This document shows, piece after piece, positions 2,509 to 14,623 of a DNA stretch of 35,329 nt. The notes under the pieces were generated by a model. The model had not been told where the DNA came from, did no database searches, and saw only the letters and a program-made list of their open reading frames with translations. Every line of letters starts with the position of its first letter. The stretch's first letter is position 1. The stretch comes from Pseudopedobacter sp. (lineage in GTDB: Bacteria > Bacteroidota > Bacteroidia > Sphingobacteriales > Sphingobacteriaceae). A program made the position numbers and the translations under genes. The stretch spans positions 1 to 35,329 of the forward strand of contig JACMOI010000025.1 in NCBI GenBank assembly GCA_014378105.1, written 5' to 3'.

Positions 2509-3840
2509 TTAAGAAATCAAATCATTTATCGCTTTCTCAATCTTCTCAAACTTAAACTCCGCAATCAAATCCTTCATCATTGCTTTCACTTCAGGTAAAT
2601 TCAAATTACCAATACTTCCTTCGTGAGTATGATTGATTTCATATTTTCCACCAAAGTTTCCTGCTTCAATATCCAAGCCTACTTTTTGATAAGCTTCTCT
2701 GAAAGGCGTTCCGGCTAAAACCAGTTTATTTACTTCTTCCACAGAAAAAAGATATTGGTATTTTGGGTCGTCCAGAATGTTGTCCTTGATTTTGATGTTT
2801 TTCAACATGAATTTAGTTATATCTAAACATGCCATTAAACTCTGGAAAGCAGGAAAAAGTGTTTCTTTCTGCAATTGCATATCGCGGTGATACCCGCTTG
2901 GCAAATTGGTCGTCAACATCATAATCTGATTGGGCAAAGCCTGTAATTGGTTGGTCCGTCCACGAATCAATTCCCAAACATCGGGATTCTTTTTGTGTGG
3001 CATGATACTGCTTCCAGTGGTGAGTTCATCAGGGAAAGAAATGAATCCAAAATTTTGATTCATAAATAAACAGGCATCCATCGCCATTTTATTTAATGTC
3101 GCCGCAATAGACGACATTGCCTGAGATAGGATTCTTTCTGTTTTTCCGCGACCCATTTGTGCATAAACCACATTATAATTCAGGTGATCAAAACCTAACA
3201 ATTGAGTAGTCATGGTCCTGTTCAAAGGAAAGGAAGAACCGTAACCTGCAGCAGAACCTAAAGGGTTTTTATTACAGATTTTATAGCTCGCCAACAGCAG
3301 TTCTAAATCGTCGATCAAGCTTTCAGCATAAGCACCAAACCACAAACCGAAAGAAGAAGGCATGGCGATTTGTAAATGCGTATAACCCGGCATCAGCTTT
3401 TCTTTATGCGTTGCAGCTAATTGAATCAAGAGTTCAAAAAGTTCCTTGACAGAGCCTACCATTTCTTGAATTTGGCTTCTGAAAAATAGTTTTAAATCCA
3501 CCAAAACCTGATCATTTCGGGAACGACCACTATGGATTTTCTTTCCGGCTTCGCCGATTCTTTGCGTCAACAGCATCTCTACTTGTGAGTGCACATCTTC
3601 TACACCTTCATCAATAGTGAATTTGCCATCTGCAATTTCTTTATAGATATTTTTCAACTCCTGCTGAACTGTGGCTAAATCTTCGTCAGGCAATAAACCA
3701 ATACTGTTAAGCATTTTGGTATGAGCTAAAGAACCTAAAACATCAAAAGACGCTAAAAACAGATCCATTTCACGGTCTTGCCCAACAGTGAATTGCTCTA
3801 CTAAATTATTGGTTGATGTTTCTTTTTGCCAAAGTTTCAT
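2509..3840 (-). CDS. argH: Argininosuccinate lyase
   Basis: It catalyses the last step of arginine synthesis, splitting argininosuccinate into arginine and fumarate in the cytoplasm. The 443-residue protein belongs to the fumarase/aspartase superfamily and is close to the usual length of about 450-460. The signature loop is TTGSSIMPHKKNPDVWELIR (consensus GSxxMxxKxNP), which holds the catalytic serine. HSGRSRNDQV near residues 102-111 and the YTHLQ/MPSSFGLW segment also match the family. It ends the arginine operon but is separated from argE by an inserted fic gene and two repeat arrays. A TAnnTTTG box at 3869-3876 suggests it has a promoter of its own. Start ATG at 3840. Confidence 0.95.
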   Translation of the reverse strand: MKLWQKETSTNNLVEQFTVGQDREMDLFLASFDVLGSLAHTKMLNSIGLLPDEDLATVQQELKNIYKEIADGKFTIDEGVEDVHSQVEMLLTQRIGEAGKKIHSGRSRNDQVLVDLKLFFRSQIQEMVGSVKELFELLIQLAATHKEKLMPGYTHLQIAMPSSFGLWFGAYAESLIDDLELLLASYKICNKNPLGSAAGYGSSFPLNRTMTTQLLGFDHLNYNVVYAQMGRGKTERILSQAMSSIAATLNKMAMDACLFMNQNFGFISFPDELTTGSSIMPHKKNPDVWELIRGRTNQLQALPNQIMMLTTNLPSGYHRDMQLQKETLFPAFQSLMACLDITKFMLKNIKIKDNILDDPKYQYLFSVEEVNKLVLAGTPFREAYQKVGLDIEAGNFGGKYEINHTHEGSIGNLNLPEVKAMMKDLIAEFKFEKIEKAINDLIS

Positions 3841-4008: not shown

Positions 4009-5103
4009 TTATTTTGATAAAATAGCCATTAATCCTTTATTGATATAATAGGTTTCTTTACCAATTTTAGTAGATTCCAATACACCTGCTTTCTCTAATT
4101 TTTTTAAATAATCAGAAGCAGTCTGCCTTTTTGCAATATTATTTTCTTCCAATATTTTTATTTTGATATACGGATAACTATACAATAAATCACACAACTC
4201 GCGAGAATAGGATGCTTTTAATGCTTTCTCAATCTTCTCTTCAGAATTGGTTTTCAATTGCAGAATAGCATTTATTTTTTGGAGTGTTAAAGCAGCAGTT
4301 TCGCCAACTCCTTTTACAATAAACTTCACCCAATCTACCCAAATCCCTTTTTCTGTTACTTCTCTTAACAAGCGATAATAATCTGCCTTGTTTTGTATGA
4401 TGTAGTAACTGAGGTATAAAACGGGTAAGCCAATTAAGTTCTGATTAATAAGATACAATACATTCAAAATTCTTCCTGTTCTTCCGTTCCCATCTGAGAA
4501 AGGATGAATAGCTTCAAATTGATAGTGAATGAGTGCCATTTTGATGAGACCATCCAGATTGGAAAACTCATTATCATTCATAAAATGCTCCAGTTCTTTT
4601 AATTTCTCTCTGATGATAGTATCACCTTCTGGAGGTGTATAAACTATTAGTTGATTTGTTGGGTTTGCAAGTTTTGTTCCGGGAGTGTTTCTGATATTCT
4701 CATCTGTATTTCTCAAACGTTGCATTACACCTACTAATAAATTAGTAGTGATAATACCTGTTTTTTGCATTTCTTGTAATCCCCAATACATTGCTTCACG
4801 ATATTGGATTACTTCTTTAGCAGCTGCATTTTTAATACTGTCAGAAAACCGTAGGGTTTCCTTGTACAATTCGTCTTGTGTGGTAACAATATTTTCTATC
4901 GCACTTGATTCTTTACTTTCCTGTAATACAATGGTGTTTAACAGTAAGTTGGGATTAGGTAAGGTTTGGCAATAACCTTTTAGTTCAGCTAATAATTTAT
5001 TCGCTTCAATGGATATTTTTAATATTTCCACGCTTTCCAGATTTGCCTTTGGAGGTAAATTTGGTAAAGAATTATAAGGTTTGTTCCTGTCAAAACTCTT
5101 CAT
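4009..5103 (-). CDS. Class II Fic-domain AMPylase with C-terminal winged helix
   Basis: This 364-residue protein is a Fic/DOC-family nucleotidyltransferase, expected to transfer AMP from ATP to target hydroxyls. The catalytic loop HPFSDGNGRTGR lies at residues 200-211 and matches HPFx[D/E]GNGRxxR fully, so it should be active. The N-terminal inhibitory helix carries SSAIEN at 66-71, matching (S/T)xxxE(G/N), and puts it in class II (autoinhibited by Glu70). Residues about 295-364 look like a winged helix-turn-helix (AKRQTASDYLKKLEKAGVL), common in this subgroup. It sits alone between argE and argH and is flanked on both sides by TGTCGA repeat arrays. The target cannot be inferred. No antitoxin-like small ORF is present. 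Confidence 0.88.
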   Translation of the reverse strand: MKSFDRNKPYNSLPNLPPKANLESVEILKISIEANKLLAELKGYCQTLPNPNLLLNTIVLQESKESSAIENIVTTQDELYKETLRFSDSIKNAAAKEVIQYREAMYWGLQEMQKTGIITTNLLVGVMQRLRNTDENIRNTPGTKLANPTNQLIVYTPPEGDTIIREKLKELEHFMNDNEFSNLDGLIKMALIHYQFEAIHPFSDGNGRTGRILNVLYLINQNLIGLPVLYLSYYIIQNKADYYRLLREVTEKGIWVDWVKFIVKGVGETAALTLQKINAILQLKTNSEEKIEKALKASYSRELCDLLYSYPYIKIKILEENNIAKRQTASDYLKKLEKAGVLESTKIGKETYYINKGLMAILSK

Positions 5104-5305: not shown

Positions 5306-6370
5306 TCAAAATAAAATCTTTTTCAACATCGTCTCATATCCCTCAATTCCTTCTTCAATCTCTTTCAAATAAATAAATTCATCCGCTGTATGCGACCTTG
5401 CCGAATCCCCTGGGCCGCATTTTAGTGATGGAATATCTAAGAGCGCTTGATCTGAAGTAGTGGGCGATCCGTAAGTATTTCTTTCTAAAGCTTTTCCAGC
5501 TTGTACAATGGGGTGCTCTTTTGGAATAGATGAAGACTTCAACCTTACAGAACGCGGAATTACCTCACAATCCACAGAAGAACGAATAATTTTTAAAACA
5601 TCCTCATTATTGTAAGCATCAGTTACACGGACATCCACTGTAAAAGTACAGTTATCAGGAACTACATTGTGTAAACTTCCTGCATTGATCATAGTCACAG
5701 TCATTTTTACCGGACCCAAAGAATCTGAAACTTTAGTGAACTGATAATTCTGGAACCACTCGATATCTTTTAATGCTTTATATATGGCGTTTTCGCCTTC
5801 ATTTCTGGCAGCATGACCAGATTTTCCTTTTACGTGACAATCCAACACTAACAGACCTTTTTCTGCGATGGCCAAATCCATTAAGGTAGGTTCACCAATA
5901 ATGGCGAAATCTAATTTGCCTAACTCAGGGATAATAGATTCTAAACCACCTTTGCCAGAATTTTCTTCTTCAGCAGTAGTGGCTATTACGATATTGTATT
6001 TTAAATTCTCCTGATTGTAAAAGTGTAGGAAGGTGGCTATCAAAGAAACCAAACAGCCTCCAGCATCATTGCTTCCCAAGCCAAATAACTTTCCATCAAC
6101 TTCATCTGGAGAAAAAGGATTACGAGTATAGCTTTTATTAGGCTTCACCGTATCGTGATGAGAATTCAATAAAATAGTTTTTTTCTTTATGTCAAAATGT
6201 TTGTTGTAAGCCCAAATATTGAACCCTTTGGTATAGAAGTCAACTCCGTTTTGGGTGAAGAAATCTGAAAGAATAGCAAAAGTCCCATCTTCTTCTTTAC
6301 TAAAAGAAGGTGTTGCAATTAGTTTTTTCAATAATTCAACTGCATTTTGATATAGGTTTTTATCAATCAT
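5306..6370 (-). CDS. argE: N-acyl-ornithine deacylase (M20 peptidase family)
   Basis: This 354-residue M20/ArgE-DapE family metal hydrolase removes the acyl group from the arginine pathway intermediate. Metal-binding motifs are visible: NSHHDTVKP, LGSNDAGGCLVSL, and TTAEEENSGKGGLESI with the catalytic Glu pair. The dimerisation domain lies around VKGKSGHAARNEGENA, and TTSDQALL supplies later ligands. Because argF' in this operon looks succinyl-specific, the substrate is probably N-succinyl-citrulline or succinyl-ornithine rather than the acetyl compound; this is inference. It lies 33 bp downstream of proC. In an uninterrupted ancestral operon argH would follow, but fic intervenes. Confidence 0.85.
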   Translation of the reverse strand: MIDKNLYQNAVELLKKLIATPSFSKEEDGTFAILSDFFTQNGVDFYTKGFNIWAYNKHFDIKKKTILLNSHHDTVKPNKSYTRNPFSPDEVDGKLFGLGSNDAGGCLVSLIATFLHFYNQENLKYNIVIATTAEEENSGKGGLESIIPELGKLDFAIIGEPTLMDLAIAEKGLLVLDCHVKGKSGHAARNEGENAIYKALKDIEWFQNYQFTKVSDSLGPVKMTVTMINAGSLHNVVPDNCTFTVDVRVTDAYNNEDVLKIIRSSVDCEVIPRSVRLKSSSIPKEHPIVQAGKALERNTYGSPTTSDQALLDIPSLKCGPGDSARSHTADEFIYLKEIEEGIEGYETMLKKILF

Positions 6371-6403: not shown

Positions 6404-7216
6404 CTACTCTTTAGTATATAATTCCCCTGCAATTTTTGCCGAAGTTTTAATCCCTTTAATCATGGCTGAGCTGAAACCATTGTGCTCCATTTCGTTTAAT
6501 CCGGCAATGGTGCAACCTTTTGGCGAGGTCACTTTATCAATCTCATGTTCTGGGTGTGATGCCAATTGCAATAATAAATCGGCAGCGCCTTTAGCTGTTT
6601 GTGCCGCCATCATCAAAGCATCTTTTGCATGGAAACCAACTTCTACACCGCCTTGTGAAGCCGCTCTAATCGAACGTAAGAAGAAAGCAATTCCACAGGC
6701 ACATAGAGCCGTTGCCGAAGTCATTAAATCTTCTTGAATTTGAATAGTCATTCCAACGGTGTCAAAAATATCCTTTACTATTTTAAGGCTTTCCGCCGAT
6801 GCATTATCGGTGGCAAAACAAGTCATAGATTGCTGAATGGCAATAGAAGTATTTGGCATCACCCGCACCACTTGTAAATCATCGTATAATTTTTCTCGGA
6901 TATTTTTACAAGTCACACCAGAAACCACTGAAGTAAATAATTGCATTTGCGGATTAATAGAAGATTTGATTTCATCCAACACCTTATTTACCTGTTGCGG
7001 TAAAACAGCTAGAACAATAATATCTGCATCTTTTACAGCAATAGCATTATCACTCGAAGTTTGGAAACCTTGAGTTGCATAATCGGCTAAACCGGTTAAA
7101 GTTCTTTTGGTTAAAGTAATTGATTTAGCAGGATATAAACCGCTTTTCACTAAGCCTTTGGCTAATGATAAACCAATATTTCCGCTTCCTATGATGGTTA
7201 TTTTCTTTGCTTCCAT
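6404..7216 (-). CDS. proC: Pyrroline-5-carboxylate reductase
   Basis: It makes L-proline from 1-pyrroline-5-carboxylate using NAD(P)H in the cytoplasm. The N-terminal Rossmann motif is ITIIGSGNIGLSLAKGL. The C-terminal dimerisation domain contains the family block around TSPKGCTIAGLNEMEHNG (usual TSPGGTTxxGL). Length is about 270 residues, as expected. The start was placed at the ATG at 7216 (MEAKKITII), which leaves the usual short N-terminus; an in-frame ATG at 7237 adds 7 residues and cannot be excluded. Its place inside the arginine operon between argB and argE links proline with ornithine metabolism. Confidence 0.9.
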   Translation of the reverse strand: MEAKKITIIGSGNIGLSLAKGLVKSGLYPAKSITLTKRTLTGLADYATQGFQTSSDNAIAVKDADIIVLAVLPQQVNKVLDEIKSSINPQMQLFTSVVSGVTCKNIREKLYDDLQVVRVMPNTSIAIQQSMTCFATDNASAESLKIVKDIFDTVGMTIQIQEDLMTSATALCACGIAFFLRSIRAASQGGVEVGFHAKDALMMAAQTAKGAADLLLQLASHPEHEIDKVTSPKGCTIAGLNEMEHNGFSSAMIKGIKTSAKIAGELYTKE

Positions 7217-7340
7217 TCTTTTTAGTTTGTTATGCATTAGTTTTTAGAACTTTCAAGACTAACACTTTATTTATTTTTGGTGTTTTAACAGACCATGAAT
7301 TAACTTCAATTCTTTCAAAACCCAATCCAGCTCTTTGATC

Positions 7341-7390: not shown

Positions 7391-8278
7391 TTAAATAACC
7401 AATTTAGTCCCAAAAGCATGGGCAATTCCCAAGTCTCCCAAATCATCGGCTTTGCCAATAAACACTTCTTTCACGCCTTTATTTATCGCTTCAAAAGCGG
7501 TGTGTAATTTAGGTAACATTCCATCAGCAATAATTCCTTTGGCTTTTAAATCTTCGTATTTAGAAGGATTGATTTCTCGGATAACTGAGCTTTCATCATT
7601 CACATCTAACAAAACTCCTTTTTTTTCGAAACAGTAAACCAGCGAAGTTTTATATTGCTTAGACATTCCAATTGCTAAAGCTGAGGCAATGGTATCTGCA
7701 TTTGTGTTTAATAACTGGCTTTTCCCATCATGCGTAATAGCTGAAAAAACAGGGATAAAACCATTACCAATCAATTTTGATAAATTCTCTTTTTGTATAG
7801 CGTTTTCATCTAAATCTCCTACGTAACCAAAATCTACCTCCTGAAAAGTGGTATCTATTTTAGATTTGATTTTTTGGATAGGTCGTTTTTTTGCTTTGAT
7901 TAAATTTCCATCAGCACCGCATAAACCTAAGGCATTACAACCATGCATTTGTAATTGAGCCACCAAGTTTTTGCTAATTAATCCGGCATAAACCATGGTT
8001 ACGATTCTTAAAGTTTCAATATCCGTGATTCTGCGTCCTTCAATCATTTTGGCTTCGATGTGTATTTCGGTTGCCAACTTTGTCGCCATTTTGCCACCAC
8101 CGTGGACCAGAATTTTATATCCTTTTAAATCGGCGAAAGCCTTTAAAAACTCATGTAGTTTTTCAGAATCATCAATGATATTTCCTCCAATTTTTATAAC
8201 AGTTAGAGCCTCGCCCTGGCTCTCTCCAAAGGAGAGGGAGTTAGAAGTTGATAAATTTTGAGGATTACTAAGCTCCAT
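7391..8278 (-). CDS. argB: N-acylglutamate kinase
   Basis: This amino-acid-kinase-family enzyme phosphorylates the gamma-carboxylate of N-acetyl- or N-succinyl-glutamate. Core motifs are VIKIGGNIID (nucleotide binding), LVHGGGKMATKLA (acyl-glutamate/phosphate loop) and NTNADTIASALA. The kinase core begins near residue 26. The first 25 residues (MELSNPQNLSTSNSLSFGES...) are not family sequence and are mostly encoded by a REP-like palindrome at 8205-8242. No closer in-frame start codon precedes LTVIKIGG, so the ATG at 8278 is likely used and the repeat is translated. The product is 295 residues, against about 260-270 without the extension. The stop is followed at once by a CACAGAG repeat. Confidence 0.92.
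   Translation of the reverse strand: MELSNPQNLSTSNSLSFGESQGEALTVIKIGGNIIDDSEKLHEFLKAFADLKGYKILVHGGGKMATKLATEIHIEAKMIEGRRITDIETLRIVTMVYAGLISKNLVAQLQMHGCNALGLCGADGNLIKAKKRPIQKIKSKIDTTFQEVDFGYVGDLDENAIQKENLSKLIGNGFIPVFSAITHDGKSQLLNTNADTIASALAIGMSKQYKTSLVYCFEKKGVLLDVNDESSVIREINPSKYEDLKAKGIIADGMLPKLHTAFEAINKGVKEVFIGKADDLGDLGIAHAFGTKLVI
8205..8242 (-). repeat. REP-like palindrome inside the 5' end of argB
   Basis: On the minus strand it reads ACTCCCTCTCCTTTGGAGAG followed by AGCCAGGGCGAGGCTC: a short hairpin (CTCTCC/GGAGAG) with a GC-rich tail. Palindromes with the core CTCTCC-TTTGGAGAGGG and a GGGxGAGGC tail are widely dispersed in Bacteroidota. Here it is in frame and encodes part of the ArgB N-terminus. 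It is in the opposite orientation to the copy at 8319-8352. Confidence 0.75.
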
Positions 8279-8357: not shown

Positions 8358-8383
8358 CTCTTCGGAGAGGATTTAGGGGAGGC
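8358..8383 (+). repeat. Second REP-like element, overlapping the argF' stop codon
   Basis: It reads CTCTTCGGAGAGGATTTAGG GGAGGC on the plus strand, a variant of the dispersed form with a short hairpin (CTCT/AGAG) and a GGATTTAGGGGAGGC tail. On the minus strand the tail encodes the last residues Cys-Leu-Pro and the TAA stop of argF'. Confidence 0.7.
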
Positions 8384-9329
8384 ATATGCTCTCTAAAATA
8401 CTCTTCAAAACCGCCTGCGCTGCCCAAACACGGTTATTAGCCTGATTTAAAACTAGTGAATTTGGTCCGTCTAAAATTTCATGTGATAATTCTAAACCTC
8501 TTCTCACGGGTAAGCAGTGCATTACGCCAGCATTATTGGTAAGTTTCAATTTTTCGTTGGTCATCATCCATGAATCATCATTGATGAGCATCTTGCCATA
8601 ATCAGTATAAGACGACCAGTTTTTTACATAAACAAAATCGGCTCCAGCTAAAGCTTCATCCTGATTGTTGGTTACTCTAGCTTTACCCACAAATTCTGGA
8701 GCTAAATCATAACCTTCAGGATGCGTAATTACAAAATCATAATCTGCTTTATTCATCCACTCGGCAAAGGAATTGGCCACCGCCTGAGGCAATGGTTTCA
8801 CATGTGGTGCCCAAGTTAAAACTACCTTGGGTTTTTCTGTTTTCTTTAATTCCTCAATCGTAATTAAATCTGCCAAACTTTGCAACGGATGGCGTGTTGC
8901 AGATTCCAAACTGACTACTGGAACACCACAAAACTTCACGAATTTATTGAAAATCTCTTCGGAATAATCCTCTTCACGGTTCAATAAACTAGGGAAAGAT
9001 CTGAAACCGATAATGTCACAATATTGGCCCATTACACCGGCCGCTTCACGAATGTGTTCCACTGTGGTACCGTTCATGATGATGCCATCCTGAGTTTCTA
9101 CTGCCCAACCTTCTTTATCGAGATTCATCACCATTACCTGCAGTCCTAAATTCAATGCGGCTTTTTGAGTGCTTAAACGTGTTCGCAAACTAGGGTTCAA
9201 GAATATCAAACCTAAAGTTTTGTGCTTGCCTAATTGCTCATTCGCAAATGGACTTTTCTTTAGCGATATTGCATCGGAAACCAATTGATGAATGTCAGAT
9301 ACGTCATAAATGGAGGTGAATAGTTTCAT
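8373..9329 (-). CDS. argF': N-succinylornithine carbamoyltransferase (ArgF'-type)
   Basis: This 318-residue transcarbamylase resembles the Bacteroides fragilis N-succinylornithine enzyme rather than ordinary ornithine carbamoyltransferase. The carbamoyl-phosphate loop is SLRTRLSTQKAALNLG, and MHCLPVRRG and ESATRHPLQSLADL are present. The specificity position before Glu-His in the 80s loop is Val90 (GIIMNGTTVEHI). From memory of published work, Pro90 marks the succinyl enzyme, Glu92 the acetyl enzyme of Xanthomonas, and Val at that site gives succinyl specificity. The assignment is therefore family-based plus one residue. The last three residues (CLP) and the stop come from a REP-like element. 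It starts 3 bp after argD. Confidence 0.88.
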   Translation of the reverse strand: MKLFTSIYDVSDIHQLVSDAISLKKSPFANEQLGKHKTLGLIFLNPSLRTRLSTQKAALNLGLQVMVMNLDKEGWAVETQDGIIMNGTTVEHIREAAGVMGQYCDIIGFRSFPSLLNREEDYSEEIFNKFVKFCGVPVVSLESATRHPLQSLADLITIEELKKTEKPKVVLTWAPHVKPLPQAVANSFAEWMNKADYDFVITHPEGYDLAPEFVGKARVTNNQDEALAGADFVYVKNWSSYTDYGKMLINDDSWMMTNEKLKLTNNAGVMHCLPVRRGLELSHEILDGPNSLVLNQANNRVWAAQAVLKSILESICLP

Positions 9330-9332
9330 TTT

Positions 9333-10466
9333 TTATTGATTTATTATTTTAGAAAAGGAGGTTAAAAATCTATCCGCATGAGCTATTGTTAAATTTAATG
9401 CAGGTAATAAACGAATGACATTCGGACTAGAAGTTCCAGTGAAAATATGTTCTTTAAAAAGCAAGTCTTTTCTCACATGAGCCATATCTTCGGGCAAATC
9501 AATTCCTATCATTAAGCCTCTTCCTCTAACCTCTTTTACTTTATCGAATTTCTTTAATTCAGAAATCAAATAGTCTCCAATTTTTGCAGCATTCTCCATT
9601 GAATTTTCCTCTTCCATCACTTCTAAAACAGCTAAAGCAGCAGCACAAGCCAAATGATTTCCACCGAAAGTAGTCCCCAGCATGCCATGCCAAGGTTTCA
9701 ATTTCGGACTGATACTGATGGCTCCGATAGGAAACCCATTTCCGATGCCTTTTGCCATTGGATAAATATCCGCATCCACACCAGCAAAATCATGAGCATA
9801 AAACTTGCCACTTCTACCATATCCACATTGAATAGAATCGGCAATAAAATAAGCACCATGCTCATCACAAAGTGAACGAATGGTTTGTAAAAACTCATCA
9901 CTAGCTACTCTTATTCCGCCCACACCTTGAATGCCTTCAATAATTACGGCACAAATTTCTTCACCTTCATCCTCGAAAACACTTTTTAAAGCCTCAATAT
10001 CATTAAAAGGAAGAAAAATAACATTGGAGTTTTGATTAACCGGAGCAACAATTTTTGGATTATCAGTTACTGAAACAGCTAAAGAAGTTCTGCCGTGGAA
10101 AGCTTTACTGAAAGCGATGATTTTCTTTCTCCCATTTGCAAATGAAGCTAGTTTCAGTGCATTTTCATTAGCCTCAGCTCCAGAGTTGCATAAGAAAAGT
10201 TGATAATCTTCTTTACCGGAAACCTTACCTAATTTTTCAGCCAATTCCACTTGTAAAGGAATCTCAATGGAGTTAGAGTAAAAGCCGATTTTATACAATT
10301 GGTCTTCTAAACGCTTCACATAATGTGGGTGGGTGTGGCCGATAGAAATTACAGCATGACCGCCATATAAATCTAGATATTCTTGTCCTTTATCATCCCA
10401 AACCAAACTTCCTTCGCCTTTAACGATGTTGATGTTGTTGATTGGATATACGTCGAATAACTTCAT
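9333..10466 (-). CDS. argD: N-acylornithine aminotransferase
   Basis: This class III PLP-dependent aminotransferase makes N-acyl-ornithine from N-acyl-glutamate semialdehyde with glutamate as donor. It has 377 residues. The PLP lysine is in MAKGIGNGFPIGAI. Other family marks are YLDLYGGHAVISIGHTHPHY near the N-terminus, CNSGAEANENALKLA (phosphate binding) and VIIEGIQGVGGI. It lies between argC (4-bp spacer) and argF' (3-bp spacer), so it is co-transcribed. No unusual residues were noted. Whether it prefers acetyl or succinyl substrates cannot be read from the sequence; the neighbouring ArgF'-type enzyme suggests succinyl. Confidence 0.93.
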   Translation of the reverse strand: MKLFDVYPINNINIVKGEGSLVWDDKGQEYLDLYGGHAVISIGHTHPHYVKRLEDQLYKIGFYSNSIEIPLQVELAEKLGKVSGKEDYQLFLCNSGAEANENALKLASFANGRKKIIAFSKAFHGRTSLAVSVTDNPKIVAPVNQNSNVIFLPFNDIEALKSVFEDEGEEICAVIIEGIQGVGGIRVASDEFLQTIRSLCDEHGAYFIADSIQCGYGRSGKFYAHDFAGVDADIYPMAKGIGNGFPIGAISISPKLKPWHGMLGTTFGGNHLACAAALAVLEVMEEENSMENAAKIGDYLISELKKFDKVKEVRGRGLMIGIDLPEDMAHVRKDLLFKEHIFTGTSSPNVIRLLPALNLTIAHADRFLTSFSKIINQ

Positions 10467-10470
10467 GATT

Positions 10471-11454
10471 TTAAAAATAAGAGGATTTAAGTTTAAGTCC
10501 TATTGTTTCAGGAATTCCGAAAAGCAAATTCATGTTCTGCACTGCTTGGCCAGATGCACCTTTTAATAAATTATCGATGATGGATAAAATCATCAATTTG
10601 TTGCCGTGTTTCTCTAAATAGATGAAGCATTTATTAGTATTCACGACTTGTTTTAAAGCTATATTGGATTTACTGATATGTGTAAACGGAGCGTCAGCAT
10701 AAAAATCCTGATAGATTTCCTCTGCTTCCTCCAAACTCAAATCGCATTCTAAATAACAACTTGCTATGATTCCACGGGTAAAATCACCTCGATAAGGAAC
10801 AAAATTGATCTCTTTATCAAAATCAGTTTGTAAATGTAATAGGCTTTCACCGATTTCATTTAAGTGTTGATGTTCGAATGCTTTGTAAACCGATAAGTTG
10901 TTGTTTCTCCAGCTGAAATGTGTAGTTGCTCCGGGTTTTTGTCCAGCTCCGGTAGAACCTGTAGTTGCCGAAATATGGACTTCAGATTTTAATAAACATG
11001 CATTTGCCAAAGGCAATAAAGCCAATTGTAAGCAAGTTGCAAAACAACCTGGATTGGCAATATTGTTTGCAGTTTTAATGGCTTTTTTATTCAATTCTGG
11101 CAAACCGTAAACGAATTTCCGATTTCCGATTTCCGATTTTTGATTGAGCCTGAAATCCTGAGAGAGGTCAATAATTTTGATGTTATCATTGAAGGAATTA
11201 GCTTCCAAAAACTTTCTTGCGTCACCATGTCCAACGCAAAGAAAAAGAACATCAATTTCTTGTGATAATTGGTCGGTGAATTTTATATCAGTGTCTCCTA
11301 ATAAATCAGTGTGCACATCAGAAATTAAATTTCCTGCATTACTATTACTATGAATAAATGCAATTTCCGTTTCAGGATGATTGATTAAAATCCTTAATAA
11401 TTCACCACCTGTGTAACCTGCTCCTCCAATAATTCCTACTTTAATTCTTTTCAT
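10471..11454 (-). CDS. argC: N-acyl-gamma-glutamyl-phosphate reductase
   Basis: It reduces N-acyl-glutamyl-phosphate to the semialdehyde with NADPH. The 327-residue protein has an N-terminal Rossmann motif (VGIIGGAGYTGGELLRIL) and the catalytic cysteine in NPGCFATCLQLALLPL. The loop GSTGAGQKPGATTHFSWR also matches the family. Next to the conserved FVYGLPELN the variable loop reads NQKSEIGNRK, encoded by tandem heptamers (11115-11142) of a type common in Bacteroidota intergenic DNA. It is separated from argG by 2 bp and from argD by 4 bp, so the three are one transcription unit. Confidence 0.93.
   Translation of the reverse strand: MKRIKVGIIGGAGYTGGELLRILINHPETEIAFIHSNSNAGNLISDVHTDLLGDTDIKFTDQLSQEIDVLFLCVGHGDARKFLEANSFNDNIKIIDLSQDFRLNQKSEIGNRKFVYGLPELNKKAIKTANNIANPGCFATCLQLALLPLANACLLKSEVHISATTGSTGAGQKPGATTHFSWRNNNLSVYKAFEHQHLNEIGESLLHLQTDFDKEINFVPYRGDFTRGIIASCYLECDLSLEEAEEIYQDFYADAPFTHISKSNIALKQVVNTNKCFIYLEKHGNKLMILSIIDNLLKGASGQAVQNMNLLFGIPETIGLKLKSSYF
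11115..11142 (-). repeat. Heptamer tandem repeat within argC
   Basis: Three exact copies of ATTTCCG (11115-11135) are followed by a degenerate ATTTTTG. On the coding strand it reads CGGAAAT repeats giving the KSEIGNRK peptide. It falls in a loop that varies among ArgC proteins, so the frame tolerates it. Confidence 0.6.
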
Positions 11455-11456
11455 CT

Positions 11457-12650
11457 TTAAATCCCTTCATTTACTTTATGCCAGATAGAAACCTGGTTTC
11501 CAAAAATTTTAGAGAATCCTTTTACATCTTCGCCAGTGTAACCTTCGTTCATTTCGCCATAGCTACCAAATTTACTGCTCATCAAATCATTTTCTGACTC
11601 AATTCCGATTACCAAGAAACGATAAGGTAATAGCTGAACAAATACTTTTCCGTTTACGGTTTTTTGAGAGTTACTTAAGAAAGCTTCTATATCTCTCATT
11701 ATTGGATCGTGGAACTGGCCTTCATGCATCCAGTTGCCATAAAACATGGATAACTGATCTTTCCAGCTCAACTGCCATTTAGTAAGCGTATGTTTCTCTA
11801 AAGCATGATGTGCTTTAATAATCACCATCGGCGCTGCCGCTTCAAATCCTACTCTTCCTTTTATTCCGATAATGGTGTCGCCAACATGAATATCTCTCCC
11901 TATGCCGAAAGGAGCAGCAATTTCTTGTAATGCCTGAATGGCTTCAGAAGGATGTCCGAATTTATTTCCATTAACAGCAATCAACTCACCTTTTGTAAAT
12001 TCTAGCTCTAAATTTTCAGCCTCTGATTTGGTCATTTGAGTTGGCCAAGCTTCCTCTGGTAACATTCCGTTAGAAGTTAAGGTTTCCTTTCCTCCTACTG
12101 ATGTTCCCCAAATTCCTTTATTGATAGAGTATTTTGCTTTTTCGGCGTTGATCTCCACACCATGTTTATGCAGGTATTCAATCTCTGCTTCGCGACTTAA
12201 TTTTAAATCTCTGATCGGTGTAATGATTCCTACTTTTGGGATCAAGATATTAAAAATCATATCGAAACGAACCTGATCGTTTCCTGCTCCAGTGCTTCCG
12301 TGGGCTACAAAATCGGCATCTATTTCTTTAGCATAATTTGCAATGGCTGTAGCTTGAGTGACACGTTCGGCGCTTACAGAAAGTGGATAAGTGTTGTTTT
12401 TTAACACATTTCCGAATATCAGATATTTAAGGCAAGAATCGTAATACCCTTTTACTGCTTCCACCGCATGATGAGAAGTCACCCCTAAACTATAAGCTCG
12501 TTCTTCAATCTGCTTTAATTCCTCTACAGAAAACCCTCCTGTATTTACGATTACTGAGTGAACTTCCAAATCCAAATCTTTGGTTAGGTAAATGCAACAA
12601 AATGAGGTGTCTAATCCTCCGCTAAACGCTAAAACAACTTTCTTTTTCAT
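11457..12650 (-). CDS. argG: Argininosuccinate synthase
   Basis: It condenses citrulline and aspartate with ATP to argininosuccinate. The N-terminal PP-loop VVLAFSGGLDTSFCCIYL is the ATP pyrophosphatase signature, and HGSTGAGNDQVRFD is the conserved substrate-binding block. The start was set at the ATG at 12650 (MKKKVVLAF), giving about 397 residues. The frame stays open to an ATG at 12698, but the extra 16 residues (MISVRNTQISILNTHN) are encoded by an intergenic hairpin and are unlike the family. It sits 79 bp downstream of the acyltransferase gene and 2 bp before argC. Confidence 0.94.
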   Translation of the reverse strand: MKKKVVLAFSGGLDTSFCCIYLTKDLDLEVHSVIVNTGGFSVEELKQIEERAYSLGVTSHHAVEAVKGYYDSCLKYLIFGNVLKNNTYPLSVSAERVTQATAIANYAKEIDADFVAHGSTGAGNDQVRFDMIFNILIPKVGIITPIRDLKLSREAEIEYLHKHGVEINAEKAKYSINKGIWGTSVGGKETLTSNGMLPEEAWPTQMTKSEAENLELEFTKGELIAVNGNKFGHPSEAIQALQEIAAPFGIGRDIHVGDTIIGIKGRVGFEAAAPMVIIKAHHALEKHTLTKWQLSWKDQLSMFYGNWMHEGQFHDPIMRDIEAFLSNSQKTVNGKVFVQLLPYRFLVIGIESENDLMSSKFGSYGEMNEGYTGEDVKGFSKIFGNQVSIWHKVNEGI

Positions 12651-12663
12651 GTTATGAGTATTT

Positions 12664-12709
12664 AGTATTGAGATTTGCGTATTTCGTACCGAAATCAAAT
12701 CTCAATACT
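12664..12709. repeat. Long perfect hairpin between the acyltransferase gene and argG
   Basis: A 14-bp perfect stem AGTATTGAGATTTG (12664-12677) with CAAATCTCAATACT (12696-12709) encloses a second perfect stem ATTTCG (12681-12686) with CGAAAT (12690-12695), separated by a 3-base bulge (CGT) and a TAC loop. The two stack into about 20 bp of duplex. No T-run follows on the minus strand, so it is not a simple terminator; it resembles dispersed AATACTCAATACT-type palindromes and could act as an RNA-processing or stability element within the operon. Confidence 0.75.
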
Positions 12710-12729: not shown

Positions 12730-13395
12730 TTATAATAATATTCCAAATTCTGTAGCTACAATTTTGGTGAAGCTTTTTAATTTGGCTTCAATACGTTTTA
12801 ATAAATTTGCCTTTTTACTGAGCTGCTTAAATCTCTCTTCTTCAAAAGGTTTCTTTTCTTCAGGATCATAAAGCATGGCAGTGCACATGCAGTTCTGGCG
12901 ACCTTTGCTCATCAGAATATCATAATTTACACAGCTTTGGCAACCCTTCCAAAAATTTTCATCTTGTGTTAATTCAGAATAAGTCACTGGCTCGTAACCT
13001 AAATCAGAATTTATTTTCATTACCGCTAAACCTGTTGTTAAACCAAAGATTTTAGAATTTGGGTATTTCTGACGTGAAAGTTCAAATATTTTAGTTTTGA
13101 TGGCTTTTGCCAAACCAGCTTTTCTATAAATAGGGTTTACAATTAAGCCAGAGTTTGCTACAAAATCACCATGGCTCCAGGTTTCAATATAGCAGAAGCC
13201 CGCCCAAGTGCCATCTTTTTGCAAAGCAATTACTGCCTTGCCCTCTAGCATTTTATTGGCAATATATTCTGGTGAACGTTTGGCAATACCAGTTCCACGA
13301 GCTTTGGCAGATTCAGCCATTTCATCGCAGATGGTTTCTGCAAAAGTGATATGTTGCGAGCCTGCAACTAGTATATTAAAATCGTGAGTATGCAT
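12730..13395 (-). CDS. GNAT acyltransferase, probable first arginine enzyme (N-acylglutamate synthase)
   Basis: This 221-residue protein has a GNAT fold: motif A around GLIVNPIYRKAGLAKAI (acyl-CoA phosphate loop R-x-x-G-x-A) and a beta-strand block KAVIALQKDGTWAGFCYIE. It is the first structural gene of the arginine operon. No other gene here could acylate glutamate, and neither a classical argJ nor an argA is present, so it is the likely N-succinyl- or N-acetyl-glutamate synthase. This is inference from position and fold. Residues about 149-170 carry a cysteine cluster, GCQSCVNY ... NCMC, which could bind a metal or arginine-feedback ligand; its role is unknown. The leader ORF ends 96 bp upstream. 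Confidence 0.75.
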   Translation of the reverse strand: MHTHDFNILVAGSQHITFAETICDEMAESAKARGTGIAKRSPEYIANKMLEGKAVIALQKDGTWAGFCYIETWSHGDFVANSGLIVNPIYRKAGLAKAIKTKIFELSRQKYPNSKIFGLTTGLAVMKINSDLGYEPVTYSELTQDENFWKGCQSCVNYDILMSKGRQNCMCTAMLYDPEEKKPFEEERFKQLSKKANLLKRIEAKLKSFTKIVATEFGILL

Positions 13396-13449
13396 TTATT
13401 TTGAGTGGAACTGTGTCCACATTTTAATAAGTAATAAATTTTTAAGGGA

Positions 13450-13464
13450 ACCATCCACGATGGT
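13450..13464 (-). promoter_or_regulatory. Distal hairpin of the arg leader
   Basis: The minus strand reads ACCATC-GTG-GATGGT, a perfect 6-bp stem with a 3-base loop, between the leader ORF stop and the first enzyme gene, followed by TCCCTTAAAAATTT. The tail is U-poor, so it would be a weak terminator. The bases just 5' of it (ATTGA in RNA sense, 13464-13468) can instead pair with TCAAT near the leader stop (13487-13491). Confidence 0.4.
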
Positions 13465-13483
13465 CAATAGATTAGGATTTTCT

Positions 13484-13501
13484 CAGATTGATCAAAATCT
13501 G
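13484..13501 (-). promoter_or_regulatory. Proximal hairpin overlapping the arg leader stop codon
   Basis: CAGATT-TTGATC-AATCTG forms a perfect 6-bp stem with a 6-base loop that contains the leader TGA. A ribosome waiting on the upstream CGA codons would leave this hairpin free; one reaching the stop codon would melt it. This is the geometry expected for an attenuator, but the folding was judged by eye only. Confidence 0.4.
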
Positions 13502-13563
13502 GGAATGTACAGGGGTCGTCGTCGTAAAGAGATTGTTCTTGAAGAAGGTAAACAAATAAACAT
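13492..13563 (-). CDS. Arginine-rich leader peptide of the arginine operon
   Basis: This is a 23-codon ORF, ATG at 13563 to TGA at 13492, beginning MFICLPSSRT and ending LRRRPLYIPRF. It has five arginines: three consecutive CGA codons (13524-13516) and two AGA codons, all before the stop. An AAAGGA purine run lies about 13 bases before the ATG. It is located 96 bp upstream of the first arginine gene on the same strand. The layout matches transcription-attenuation leaders known for his, thr and ilv operons: low charged tRNA-Arg would stall the ribosome on the CGA run and change downstream folding. Only the sequence layout is seen; function is inferred. Confidence 0.75.
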   Translation of the reverse strand: MFICLPSSRTISLRRRPLYIPRF

Positions 13564-13894
13564 AGCAAGTGCTATTTCCTTTGCGGAAGCAATACACTTG
13601 TCTGTATGTAGATGAGTTTGTTTCATTTTCTTTAGCTATCAGGGAGTTAACCTGTTTTCTACAGCAAAAGAGCACATAATTTTTATCAATAACAACATTT
13701 AATTTAATTAATGATGTTTTGTTGATTTTATCTTAACGATGGTTTTGAACCAAATACCGAAATGGGCTAAGGTTTAAAATTTAATTGATAAGTAGGTTTT
13801 GCATTAAGGAATGTAACGGCGGCCTTTTTTTGAAGTCAGGAATTATATAGTTGAAGAAAAAGATATAGTGAAAAGCCTTTGAAGGTACCTTAAA
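13564..13894. other. Intergenic region upstream of the arginine leader
   Basis: This gap lies between the desaturase stop (13895) and the leader ORF. It holds the tentative arg promoter. A 67-residue minus-strand frame (13675-13472) overlaps the leader in another phase, shows no family resemblance and is not called as a gene. Nothing else definite was found; no strong terminator for the desaturase gene is visible. Confidence 0.5.
13665..13696 (-). promoter_or_regulatory. Candidate promoter of the arginine operon
   Basis: On the minus strand GTTG (13696-13693) is followed 20 bases later by CTCTTTTG (13672-13665), an approximate match to the Bacteroidota TTTG / TAnnTTTG pair. It would start transcription roughly 95 bases before the leader ATG. 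The -7 box has two mismatches, so this is tentative. Confidence 0.3.
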
Positions 13895-14623
13895 TTAAGC
13901 TTTTCTAAATCTGATGATTCTTAACCAATGCATTACTTTCATAATTGGATATACTGGATCTATTTCAAACCATCTTTTACCAAAATTTGGGCTGTTTGGA
14001 AACTTATGGTGGTTATTTTGAAATAATTCTCCCAACATTAAAAAATCGAAAGGAGTTGAGTTTTTTGATTTGTCTTGGTTATCAAAATTAGAATATCCGT
14101 ATTTATGACCGCACCAATTTACTACTGCACCATGCAAAGGACCCATTACAAAATGGAAAGGAAGCAATAACCACATCCACCATTGGGTGGCGAAAATTAA
14201 ATAAAATCCGAAATAAGCTATAGAAAAAATGATTCTTGAAGCCATAGAGGTTCCTAAATTATCAATGAACTTCCACTCGGGATATTCGCCTCTAAATTGC
14301 GGTTCAGGCTCTTGTAAATCTTTTTCGTAAATAACATACTGACCACGTGTATTCCACATCATTTGGAAAACATCTTCAAAAAAATGCGGAGAATGAGGAT
14401 CCTTTTCAGTATCGGAAAACGCATGGTGCATGCGGTGCATAATAGCGTAAGCTTTTGGCTTTAAGTACGATGCACCTTGGCCAATGTAAGTTAATATATA
14501 AAAGAAACGATACCAAAAGGGATTCATGCTGAACATTTTGTGCGAAGCATAGCGATGTAAAAAGAATGTTTGCACAAAAAGAGAAAGGAACCAATGTGTG
14601 ATAAAGAAAATGATAATATACAT
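13895..14623 (-). CDS. Membrane fatty-acyl desaturase
   Basis: This 242-residue integral membrane di-iron desaturase of the acyl-CoA/lipid desaturase family introduces a double bond into acyl chains. The three histidine boxes are visible: HRYASHK near residues 23-29, HRMHHAFSD near 63-71, and FQNNHHKFP near the C-terminus, with an additional His in NWCGHKYGY. Hydrophobic segments cover the N-terminus (YIIIFFITHWFLSLFV) and the middle (RIIFSIAYFGFYLIFATQWW, LLLPFHFVMG). The protein is compact compared with about 260-330 residues for many relatives, but all boxes are kept. It lies 56 bp downstream of the TPR gene on the same strand and upstream of the arginine operon, with no functional link seen. 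Confidence 0.85.
   Translation of the reverse strand: MYIIIFFITHWFLSLFVQTFFLHRYASHKMFSMNPFWYRFFYILTYIGQGASYLKPKAYAIMHRMHHAFSDTEKDPHSPHFFEDVFQMMWNTRGQYVIYEKDLQEPEPQFRGEYPEWKFIDNLGTSMASRIIFSIAYFGFYLIFATQWWMWLLLPFHFVMGPLHGAVVNWCGHKYGYSNFDNQDKSKNSTPFDFLMLGELFQNNHHKFPNSPNFGKRWFEIDPVYPIMKVMHWLRIIRFRKA

Follow-up and report, generated by a model that had tools for sequence, protein, structure and literature searches.

How is arginine biosynthesis adjusted to arginine supply in a bacterium in which no ArgR can be found? This question is raised by an arginine operon in the stretch of DNA analysed here (35,329 nt; called the window, by which we mean the whole stretch). The genome to which it belongs is rated 96.68% complete and gave no match to ArgR (ArgR_C), while the same search was positive in 8 of 14 control genomes. 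The accessible portions of the open PMC literature yielded no account of arginine control in Bacteroidota lacking ArgR. We propose that the operon is preceded by a cis-acting, ribosome-mediated attenuator, which would tune it to arginine supply in bacteria without ArgR, and we give this reading a probability of roughly 0.6. That the leader is translated and regulates the operon seems highly probable; that it senses arginine through a starvation stall is likely, with room for doubt.

The leader ORF and the arginine operon

A preliminary description of this DNA reported a 23-codon, arginine-rich ORF upstream of the first arginine gene. The leader ORF (MFICLPSSRTISLRRRPLYIPRF) is indeed present on the minus strand, with its stop codon TGA at 13494-13492. 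Its three consecutive Arg codons, CGA CGA CGA (13524-13516), are the proposed arginine sensor, and the peptide ends in P-R-F-stop (13492-13503), a terminus conserved in an alignment of relatives. The conserved form of the ORF, however, has 44 codons (MKQTHLHTDKCIASAKEIALAMFICLPSSRTISLRRRPLYIPRF; 13492-13626): it starts at an in-frame ATG at 13626, which is common to relatives and lies 63 nt upstream of the start reported earlier. This form gives a profile match with E = 1.2e-14, and its pN/pS is lowest in frame 0. The string CGNCGNCG occurs 49 times per strand across the 3.35-Mb genome.

That arginine genes lie downstream was confirmed by family-profile matches. All are on the minus strand, and the first is GNAT (12730-13395), a probable N-acylglutamate synthase. 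Scores above the cut-off identify argG (11457-12698; TIGR00032), argC (10471-11454; TIGR01850), argB (7391-8278; TIGR00761), proC (6404-7237; TIGR00112) and argH (2509-3840; TIGR00838). For an argD-type aminotransferase (9333-10466) and an N-acylornithine carbamoyltransferase (argF'; 8373-9329), the best match falls below the curated cut-off, and an ArgE/DapE-type deacylase (5306-6370), also below cut-off, has a Peptidase_M20 match. Between the deacylase gene and argH lies a gene for a SoFic-like protein adenylyltransferase (Fic; 4009-5103, minus strand).

GNAT is likely the first enzyme of the arginine pathway. By sequence, its relatives of solved structure are GNAT acetyltransferases (5 distinct sequences), and we take it to be a relative of Bacteroides BT3761. 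The GapMind paper (PMC7311316), in its accessible part, describes the latter as probably an N-succinylglutamate synthase. In 14 family genomes there is also another GNAT copy, which is more distant (49-58% identity).

Conservation of the leader in Sphingobacteriaceae

Family loci were fetched with the GNAT protein: 129 family genomes have GNAT, and 110 of these were read. Another 80 named loci were also fetched, which overlap partly with those 110 genomes. Two loci on cut contigs (L110 and L171) were removed before clade tables were drawn up, and identical tails were merged. Where no genus name is given, clades are referred to as E, g16, g5g8 and 'pedo' (our label for genus g14); Sphingobacteriaceae and Bacteroidia, as names of the family and class, follow those of the named loci.

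The preliminary description looked to related operons for a similar leader, and an Arg-containing short ORF does occupy the same place in nearly all relatives read. All but two of the 167 distinct family loci (165; the exceptions are L076 and L252) end the leader with Arg within its last two codons, and RR is found within the last 14 codons in 147, although the score by which ORFs were picked favours Arg near the stop; the counts of Arg per 10 codons and of ORFs of 36-48 codons given below carry controls without this score. One leader (L014) ends ITLR and has no motif. At the expected leader start, L161 has no ATG and L056 only TTG. The chosen leaders are 44 codons long in 80 loci, 41 in 55 and of other lengths in the rest, with a bias to 44, since 120 of the 167 have several in-frame ATGs and our script took the one nearest 44 codons. 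Choosing the longest ATG form instead gives 44 codons in 76 loci and 41 in 46, and where there is a single in-frame ATG (46 loci) the figures are 22 and 16.

Between genera, the leader can be aligned at its end alone, as R-x-R-R-P-x-x-P-R-x-stop. The Mucilaginibacter version is S-R-R-R-x-[FY]-[IM]-P-R-V, and two other genera have F-P-R-R. 'Pedo' (19 loci) ends S-R-Q-x-[FY]-T-P-R-I, without the RR pair, which leaves it one CGG and the Arg that precedes the stop. In ATG-started ORFs upstream of GNAT, the most Arg-rich stretch of 10 codons holds 3.66 Arg on average (166 distinct family loci), compared to 1.20 after shuffling and 1.86 for the other strand. Four or more Arg are reached at 134 loci versus 21 on the other strand, and five or more at 1 locus versus 12.

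A profile built from 23 leaders gave significant matches (E <= 1e-3) in 38 of 61 family genomes, always at the GNAT locus, and no second place at this threshold in any of the 61. Of the 23 genomes with no profile match, 13 have no GNAT match and 10 have GNAT but too divergent a leader, these being the P-R-R genera, the S-R-Q genus and G019. Pfam and NCBIfam searches with three family leaders and one leader from another family returned nothing credible (one Pfam match, E 0.12, is below the cut-off).

Coding selection and codon choice

In all six clades, frame 0 has a lower pN/pS (0.54-0.70) than either of the other frames in the N-terminal part of the leader, and the value drops to 0.06-0.37 in the last 11 codons. 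For the window genus, the N-terminal values by frame are 0.70, 0.74 and 1.23, so the margin over frame 1 is small. Such frame-specific selection is an indirect sign that the leader is translated. Conservation of the leader, coding selection on it and its link to the arginine operon are well supported.

Motif loci number 134 (of 164 distinct loci). All of them use CGA for the first Arg of the RR pair, and 124 use it for the second. In the RR-motif clades, CGA makes up 46-93% of Arg codons in the leader tail versus 3-25% in available GNAT DNA, and in 20 ORFs of the window it accounts for 23 of 248 Arg codons. The 'pedo' tail has no CGA, using mostly CGG and CGT. Further along, at the P-R of the same 134 loci, codons vary synonymously: Pro is CCC in 51, CCA in 38, CCT in 22 and CCG in 10, and Arg is CGG in 65, AGG in 26, AGA in 21 and CGA in 20. 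The expectation, raised earlier, of synonymous codon variation at constant Arg thus fails within the family, where RR is almost fixed as CGA, and holds between families (CGT, CGC, AGG, AGA).

Among the tRNA matches listed, the Arg anticodons of the genome are ACG, CCG and CCT. TCG is absent from the 29 matches listed, a list that is incomplete, since scoring covered 150 of the 353 candidates and also missed TCT, an anticodon that every genome should have.

A promoter-like element upstream of the leader

Bacteroidota promoters have a -33/-7 consensus, and an element of this type, TTG followed by GCTCTTTTGC, lies upstream of the leader at 13664-13695 on the minus strand. The motif GCTNTTTTGC is kept in 13 of 13 aligned loci of the window genus. 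Two patterns, both picked after the sequences had been seen, were counted across clades. TTG-N14..26-TTTGC, placed 20-90 nt 5' of the ORF, occurs in 13/13 loci of the window genus, 58/63 of Mucilaginibacter and 18/19 of 'pedo', with a shuffled expectation of 0.1-0.2; elsewhere it is found in 3/21 Sphingobacterium, 2/8 Parapedobacter and 12/24 E loci. TAnnTTTG occurs in 20/21 Sphingobacterium and 8/8 Parapedobacter loci; as a strict, general promoter motif it was rejected, being present in 1/13 loci of the window genus, 2/63 of Mucilaginibacter and 0/19 of 'pedo'. The promoter-like element argues against a transcription start downstream of 13492, and we infer that the leader ORF is inside the transcript.

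Hairpins of the window and its genus

Folding gives four hairpins on the minus strand. H0 (CAGG/CCTG; 13640-13654) is a small hairpin between the promoter-like element and the leader start. P1 (CAGATT/AATCTG; 13484-13501) overlaps the stop codon, and H2 (GACCATC/GATGGTT; 13449-13465) lies between the leader and the first enzyme; both had been described before and were recovered here. H3 (GTGGA/TCCAC; 13405-13420), overlooked earlier, ends 10 nt before the GNAT ATG. Its fifth pair is AT, TG, CG or GC in eight loci whose arms were put in register by hand. P1, H2 and H3 recur at fixed places in the window genus, with arms that differ between loci. Taken singly, the hairpins of the window are near chance: relative to shuffled sequences, significance (p <= 0.05) is reached by H0 at 4 of the 13 loci of the genus (window p 0.19), by H2 at 7 (window p 0.08) and by H3 at 3 (window p 0.13). 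The leader RNA as a whole (141 nt) is not unusually stable (z -0.44). An 8-codon ORF, MWTQFHSK-stop (13396-13422, minus strand), contains H3 and adjoins the GNAT start codon; its equivalents have an early stop in L003 and ACG in place of ATG in L007.

A third pairing, ATTGA/TCAAT, had been suggested to compete with both P1 and H2. Of the 13 genus loci, two can form it at that place, namely the window and, with a G-U pair, L006; this excludes it as a conserved antiterminator.

How far P1 extends beyond the genus was assessed in two ways. Compared with partners swapped in from other clades, its own arms rank in the best 5% in 8/13 loci of the window genus, 21/21 of Sphingobacterium, 6/25 of E, 3/8 of Parapedobacter, 4/4 of g16, 2/6 of g5g8, 2/63 of Mucilaginibacter and 0/19 of 'pedo'. 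P1 surpasses shuffled sequences in 1/13, 21/21, 9/25, 5/8, 4/4, 1/6, 2/63 and 3/19 loci of these clades, respectively, and in 5/15 leaders of other families. A family-wide P1 stem is ruled out by these counts. Rfam gave no match in the window, none in 13380-13700 up to E 5, and none in 10 related loci at gathering scores.

A computed switch in Sphingobacterium and Parapedobacter

For Sphingobacterium, a structure of four helices was obtained: one pairs the RRP codons to the GNAT start, one spans the stop codon, one is H2, and one joins the stop-region loop to the H2 loop. These helices pair in 96.7% of cells (21 loci), compared to 25-39% when slid, a comparison in which the structure is favoured because it was derived from the same sequences, with RNAalifold and with loops read by eye. 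Covariation is 0.195 versus 0.110, and 0 of 500 shuffles are as high. All seven pairs of H2 covary, and the other helices are mostly invariant. The RRP-to-start helix is paired in 98.6% of cells, with one two-sided change; as this helix and P1 hardly vary, their support comes from conservation, not covariation. Parapedobacter has the same roles in other letters, with ACGACCC/GGGTCGT where Sphingobacterium has CGACCTA/TAGGTCG. Its structure is paired in 98.0% of cells (10 of 500 shuffles as high), with covariation matched by 6 of 500 shuffles and further pair types by 187 of 500.

Swapped partners give the RRP-to-start pairing only modest support: own partners rank in the best 5% in 4/21 Sphingobacterium, 1/8 Parapedobacter, 0/4 g16 and 0/13 window-genus loci. 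For kissing of the P1 and H2 loops, the corresponding counts are 10/21 in Sphingobacterium, 2/8 in Parapedobacter and 3/4 in g16, and for a negative-control segment 2/21, 1/8 and 0/4. Outside these three clades, comparison with swapped partners led us to reject both pairings as family-wide features.

We then computed the cost of opening the GNAT start with parts of the leader held open. When the RR codons are forced open, the start becomes more than 1 kcal/mol cheaper to open in 20/21 Sphingobacterium and 6/8 Parapedobacter loci, and in 1/13 loci of the window genus, 4/63 of Mucilaginibacter, 2/24 of E, 1/4 of g16 and 0/19 of 'pedo'. For the window itself there is no gain, the cost being 2.5 kcal/mol with the RR codons blocked and 2.5 without. 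A block in mid-leader opens the start in 4/21 Sphingobacterium, 0/8 Parapedobacter and 2/13 window-genus loci, and a block at the stop in 11/21, 0/8 and 0/13. A mixed group of 8 loci was excluded from the swapped-partner and start-opening computations, and the latter kept 2 of 6 g5g8 and 24 of 25 E loci, the rest being too short. These computations lend the mechanism support in two genera, where output at the level of translation seems rather probable.

ArgR and leaders in other families

Among 296 genomes of the class Bacteroidia, 14 gave a match to ArgR_C, and none was detected in the other 282. Ten of the 14 have GNAT among the matches listed; G187, G224, G253 and G344 have no listed GNAT. 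Nine of the ten, which are the genomes with a strong ArgR match plus a listed GNAT (G181, G218, G247, G276, G301, G324, G364, G414 and G430), carry the ArgR match on the strand of GNAT, at a distance of 41-149 nt upstream of it. The tenth, G250, has a weak ArgR match (8e-5) elsewhere in the genome. The position of ArgR directly upstream of GNAT in these nine indicates that the place before the operon is filled by argR or by a leader.

The 108 listed GNAT genomes include 95 from outside the family, of which 60 were read. ORFs of 36-48 codons that end 60-230 nt before GNAT and have Arg in the last three codons occur at 18 of these 60 loci; examples end PFFPRR, PYCPRR, FYRSRI and RFTFRV. In 200 shuffles such ORFs were seen at 1.4 loci on average and never at more than 4, and the other strand has 4. 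One of the 18 (L227) sits in an ArgR genome, and its ORF is probably a chance one. At least 3 Arg in 10 codons are seen at 38 of 60 loci versus 19 on the other strand, and the Arg count has p <= 0.05 relative to shuffles at 20. A convincing leader is absent from many of the 60. Three loci of one family (L211, L212 and L213; family f52), inspected by eye, show two successive Arg-rich short ORFs before GNAT, which in L211 end LRRRRPMRRR-stop and VRRFFPRP-stop; they also have arms resembling GCCC/GGGC on either side of the second stop, and further on GTGAGTCC or a similar stretch recurs.

Upstream of GNAT, 14 of the 60 loci have a hairpin that closes the loop UA[CU]G[UC], and in 12 of them it is 83-136 nt before the gene. 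The other strand gave 2, and 100 shuffles gave 1.28 on average and never more than 3; the hairpin is also present at 6/6 g5g8 and 1/13 window-genus loci. As the motif was spotted in the same loci, these counts are descriptive. At L177 and L183 the loop is complementary to sequence just past the leader stop.

Proposed mechanism and alternatives

The proposed events are as follows. Transcription would start about 40-50 nt upstream of the 44-codon ORF, to judge from the conserved promoter-like element, and a ribosome would translate the leader, as frame-specific selection indirectly suggests. If charged tRNA-Arg were short, this ribosome would halt at the CGA CGA codons; CGA is rare and, judging by the tRNA genes in our incomplete list, would be read only by the ICG anticodon. 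The halted ribosome would alter the RNA fold behind it and free the GNAT start region. With enough arginine, the ribosome would reach P-R-x-stop and leave, and the RNA would refold and shut the GNAT start region. The last step draws on the RRP/GNAT-start pairing of Sphingobacterium and Parapedobacter; in the window genus, which lacks that pairing, the candidate output element is H3, before the GNAT ATG. That the leader senses arginine is inferred from its codons, from the operon that it precedes and from the lack of a detected repressor. The 'pedo' leader, with its one CGG and the Arg next to the stop, is thin for a starvation sensor, and such a sensor does not require preferred lengths of 44 and 41 codons or a conserved Pro.

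The output might instead depend on Rho, with the leader ribosome governing access of Rho to a C-rich, G-poor stretch between P1 and GNAT, so that transcription ends before GNAT. This possibility, which concerns the output step and is compatible with sensing by a stall, we regard as doubtful. The genome encodes Rho. C exceeds G at +12 to +32 from the stop in 8 of 9 groups, strongly so in four (C 0.32-0.38, G 0.01-0.15), and at +52 to +75 in 8 of 9, with one tie; at +32 to +52, however, G exceeds C in 3 of 9 groups, including the window genus, and a skew of this kind may be general in AT-rich intergenic DNA. Sites consisting of a hairpin and a T-rich tail before GNAT are near the shuffled level in the window genus (8/13 loci versus 6.8), which suits termination by Rho, and Rho acts in orf34-speF, according to the accessible part of PMC6386406. 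Yet a halted ribosome exposes more RNA, which is the wrong sign for Rho unless P1 or H2 hides it.

The leader might also act through its peptide. A chain of about 44 residues, with R-x-R-R-P-x-x-P-R-x in the tunnel, could respond to high free arginine by stalling the ribosome at the stop or ahead of it, thereby shutting the operon, as a bacterial counterpart of the fungal arginine attenuator peptide. We consider such an arrest unlikely, though several observations agree with it: the Pro and Arg of P-R are kept while their codons vary, two leader lengths (44 and 41 codons) are preferred, other families have recurrent ORFs of 36-48 codons with terminal Arg well beyond the shuffled maximum, and one genus keeps P-R-I-stop without the RR pair. 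The nearly fixed CGA suggests decoding rather than peptide chemistry, however; part of the tail is also under RNA-pairing constraint, and the N-terminal part evolves fast. A broader form of this idea, to which we also give a low probability, is an ancient, class-wide switch standing in for ArgR. Its leader peptide, of about 39-45 residues, would end with Arg close to the stop; one hairpin would span the stop codon and another would kiss the first through its loop (UAYGY in several families). The switch would sense nascent peptide and codons together, like the fungal arginine attenuator peptide.

A classical attenuator with an intrinsic terminator, as in his or trp, is quite improbable. The preliminary description had likened the locus to his, thr and ilv, and this wiring did not hold up: the competing pairing is confined to the two genus loci noted above, terminator-like sites are near the shuffled level, and the switch that can be computed acts on translation initiation. 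ATTGA/TCAAT was the pairing tested as antiterminator, and no conserved one was found. The window has no intrinsic terminator on the sense strand, the sole site from a pattern scan of 13380-13900 reading the other strand, and Mucilaginibacter, like the window genus, is near the shuffled level (34/63 versus 30.3). Parts of the family do exceed it, namely E (20/25 versus 11.9), Sphingobacterium (18/21 versus 11.7), g16 (4/4 versus 1.3) and 'pedo' (7/19 versus 3.0), and termination, whether intrinsic or by Rho, is therefore possible there. The genome also has a WWW leader before a trpD-like gene, which would fit an attenuator of the classical kind.

That the ORF encodes a small protein with its own function, or is there by chance, is very improbable: frame-specific selection over the whole ORF agrees with a functional protein, but the N-terminal part is barely alignable between genera, no Pfam or NCBIfam match is credible and 38 of 38 significant profile matches fall at the arginine operon, while chance is disfavoured by the Arg-count controls, the single-place profile matches and the frame-specific selection.

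Relation to known systems

We judge the arginine leader to be a case of leader-peptide attenuation, a mechanism known in kind, applied here to arginine biosynthesis. The his, trp, thr and ilv attenuators have codons for the end product in a leader ORF and a hairpin at its end. The present leader differs from them in that no conserved terminator/antiterminator pair was found, in its preferred lengths and in a nearly fixed rare codon. The fungal arginine attenuator peptide is eukaryotic, lies upstream of an arginine gene and stalls through its nascent chain when arginine is high; going by this description alone, it resembles our leader as a conserved peptide before an arginine gene. Bacteroid-trp RNA functions through a leader peptide before an amino-acid operon in Bacteroidetes. 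It concerns tryptophan, whereas the arginine leader has no match in Rfam, where Bacteroid-trp is RF01692. The genome of the window has a 30-codon ORF with a TTG start and WWW (L284:1482-1574, plus strand), upstream of a gene that we take, from its sequence, to be trpD-like; this ORF overlaps a Bacteroid-trp match below the cut-off and is probably a second leader-peptide attenuator of this genome.

The closest logic is that of Salmonella orf34-speF, a translational attenuator backed by experiment, as described in the accessible part of PMC6386406. There, orf34 (speFL) has two consecutive Arg codons plus one beside the stop, a hairpin just past the stop and leader RNA that pairs with the start region of the next gene, and low arginine leads to expression, as we propose here (PMC6386406). 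It differs in belonging to another phylum, in preceding an ornithine decarboxylase gene, in its DUF2618 peptide and in being induced by ornithine too (PMC6386406). Our leader has no Pfam match to DUF2618 (the speFL peptide), and the downstream operon, unlike speF, makes arginine. In rbfL of Staphylococcus aureus, rare Arg codons likewise sense arginine and act on translation initiation, but rbfL has 8 codons, overlaps the ribosome site of its target, works with the opposite sign and targets a biofilm regulator, according to what is accessible of PMC13009471.

No leader-peptide attenuator of a bacterial arginine biosynthesis operon was found in a search of the open PMC literature. None is named in the accessible parts of PMC8632094, PMC4833913, PMC11109978, PMC7366714, PMC2864571 and PMC2965389. 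PMC9723704, in its accessible part, reports hints that amino-acid operons in Flavobacterium psychrophilum are preceded by leader-peptide attenuators; arginine is not named among them.

The usual controller of operons like this one is a repressor protein; here, as far as sequence can tell, the leader very probably does that job, and leader and argR gene swap places before one operon. In Bacteroidota, a phylum that makes little use of Shine-Dalgarno pairing, the leader would represent attenuation at the level of translation. The proposal makes a prediction at the level of codons, CGA CGA, and it offers a specific, testable answer to how arginine may be controlled in a large group of Bacteroidota without ArgR.
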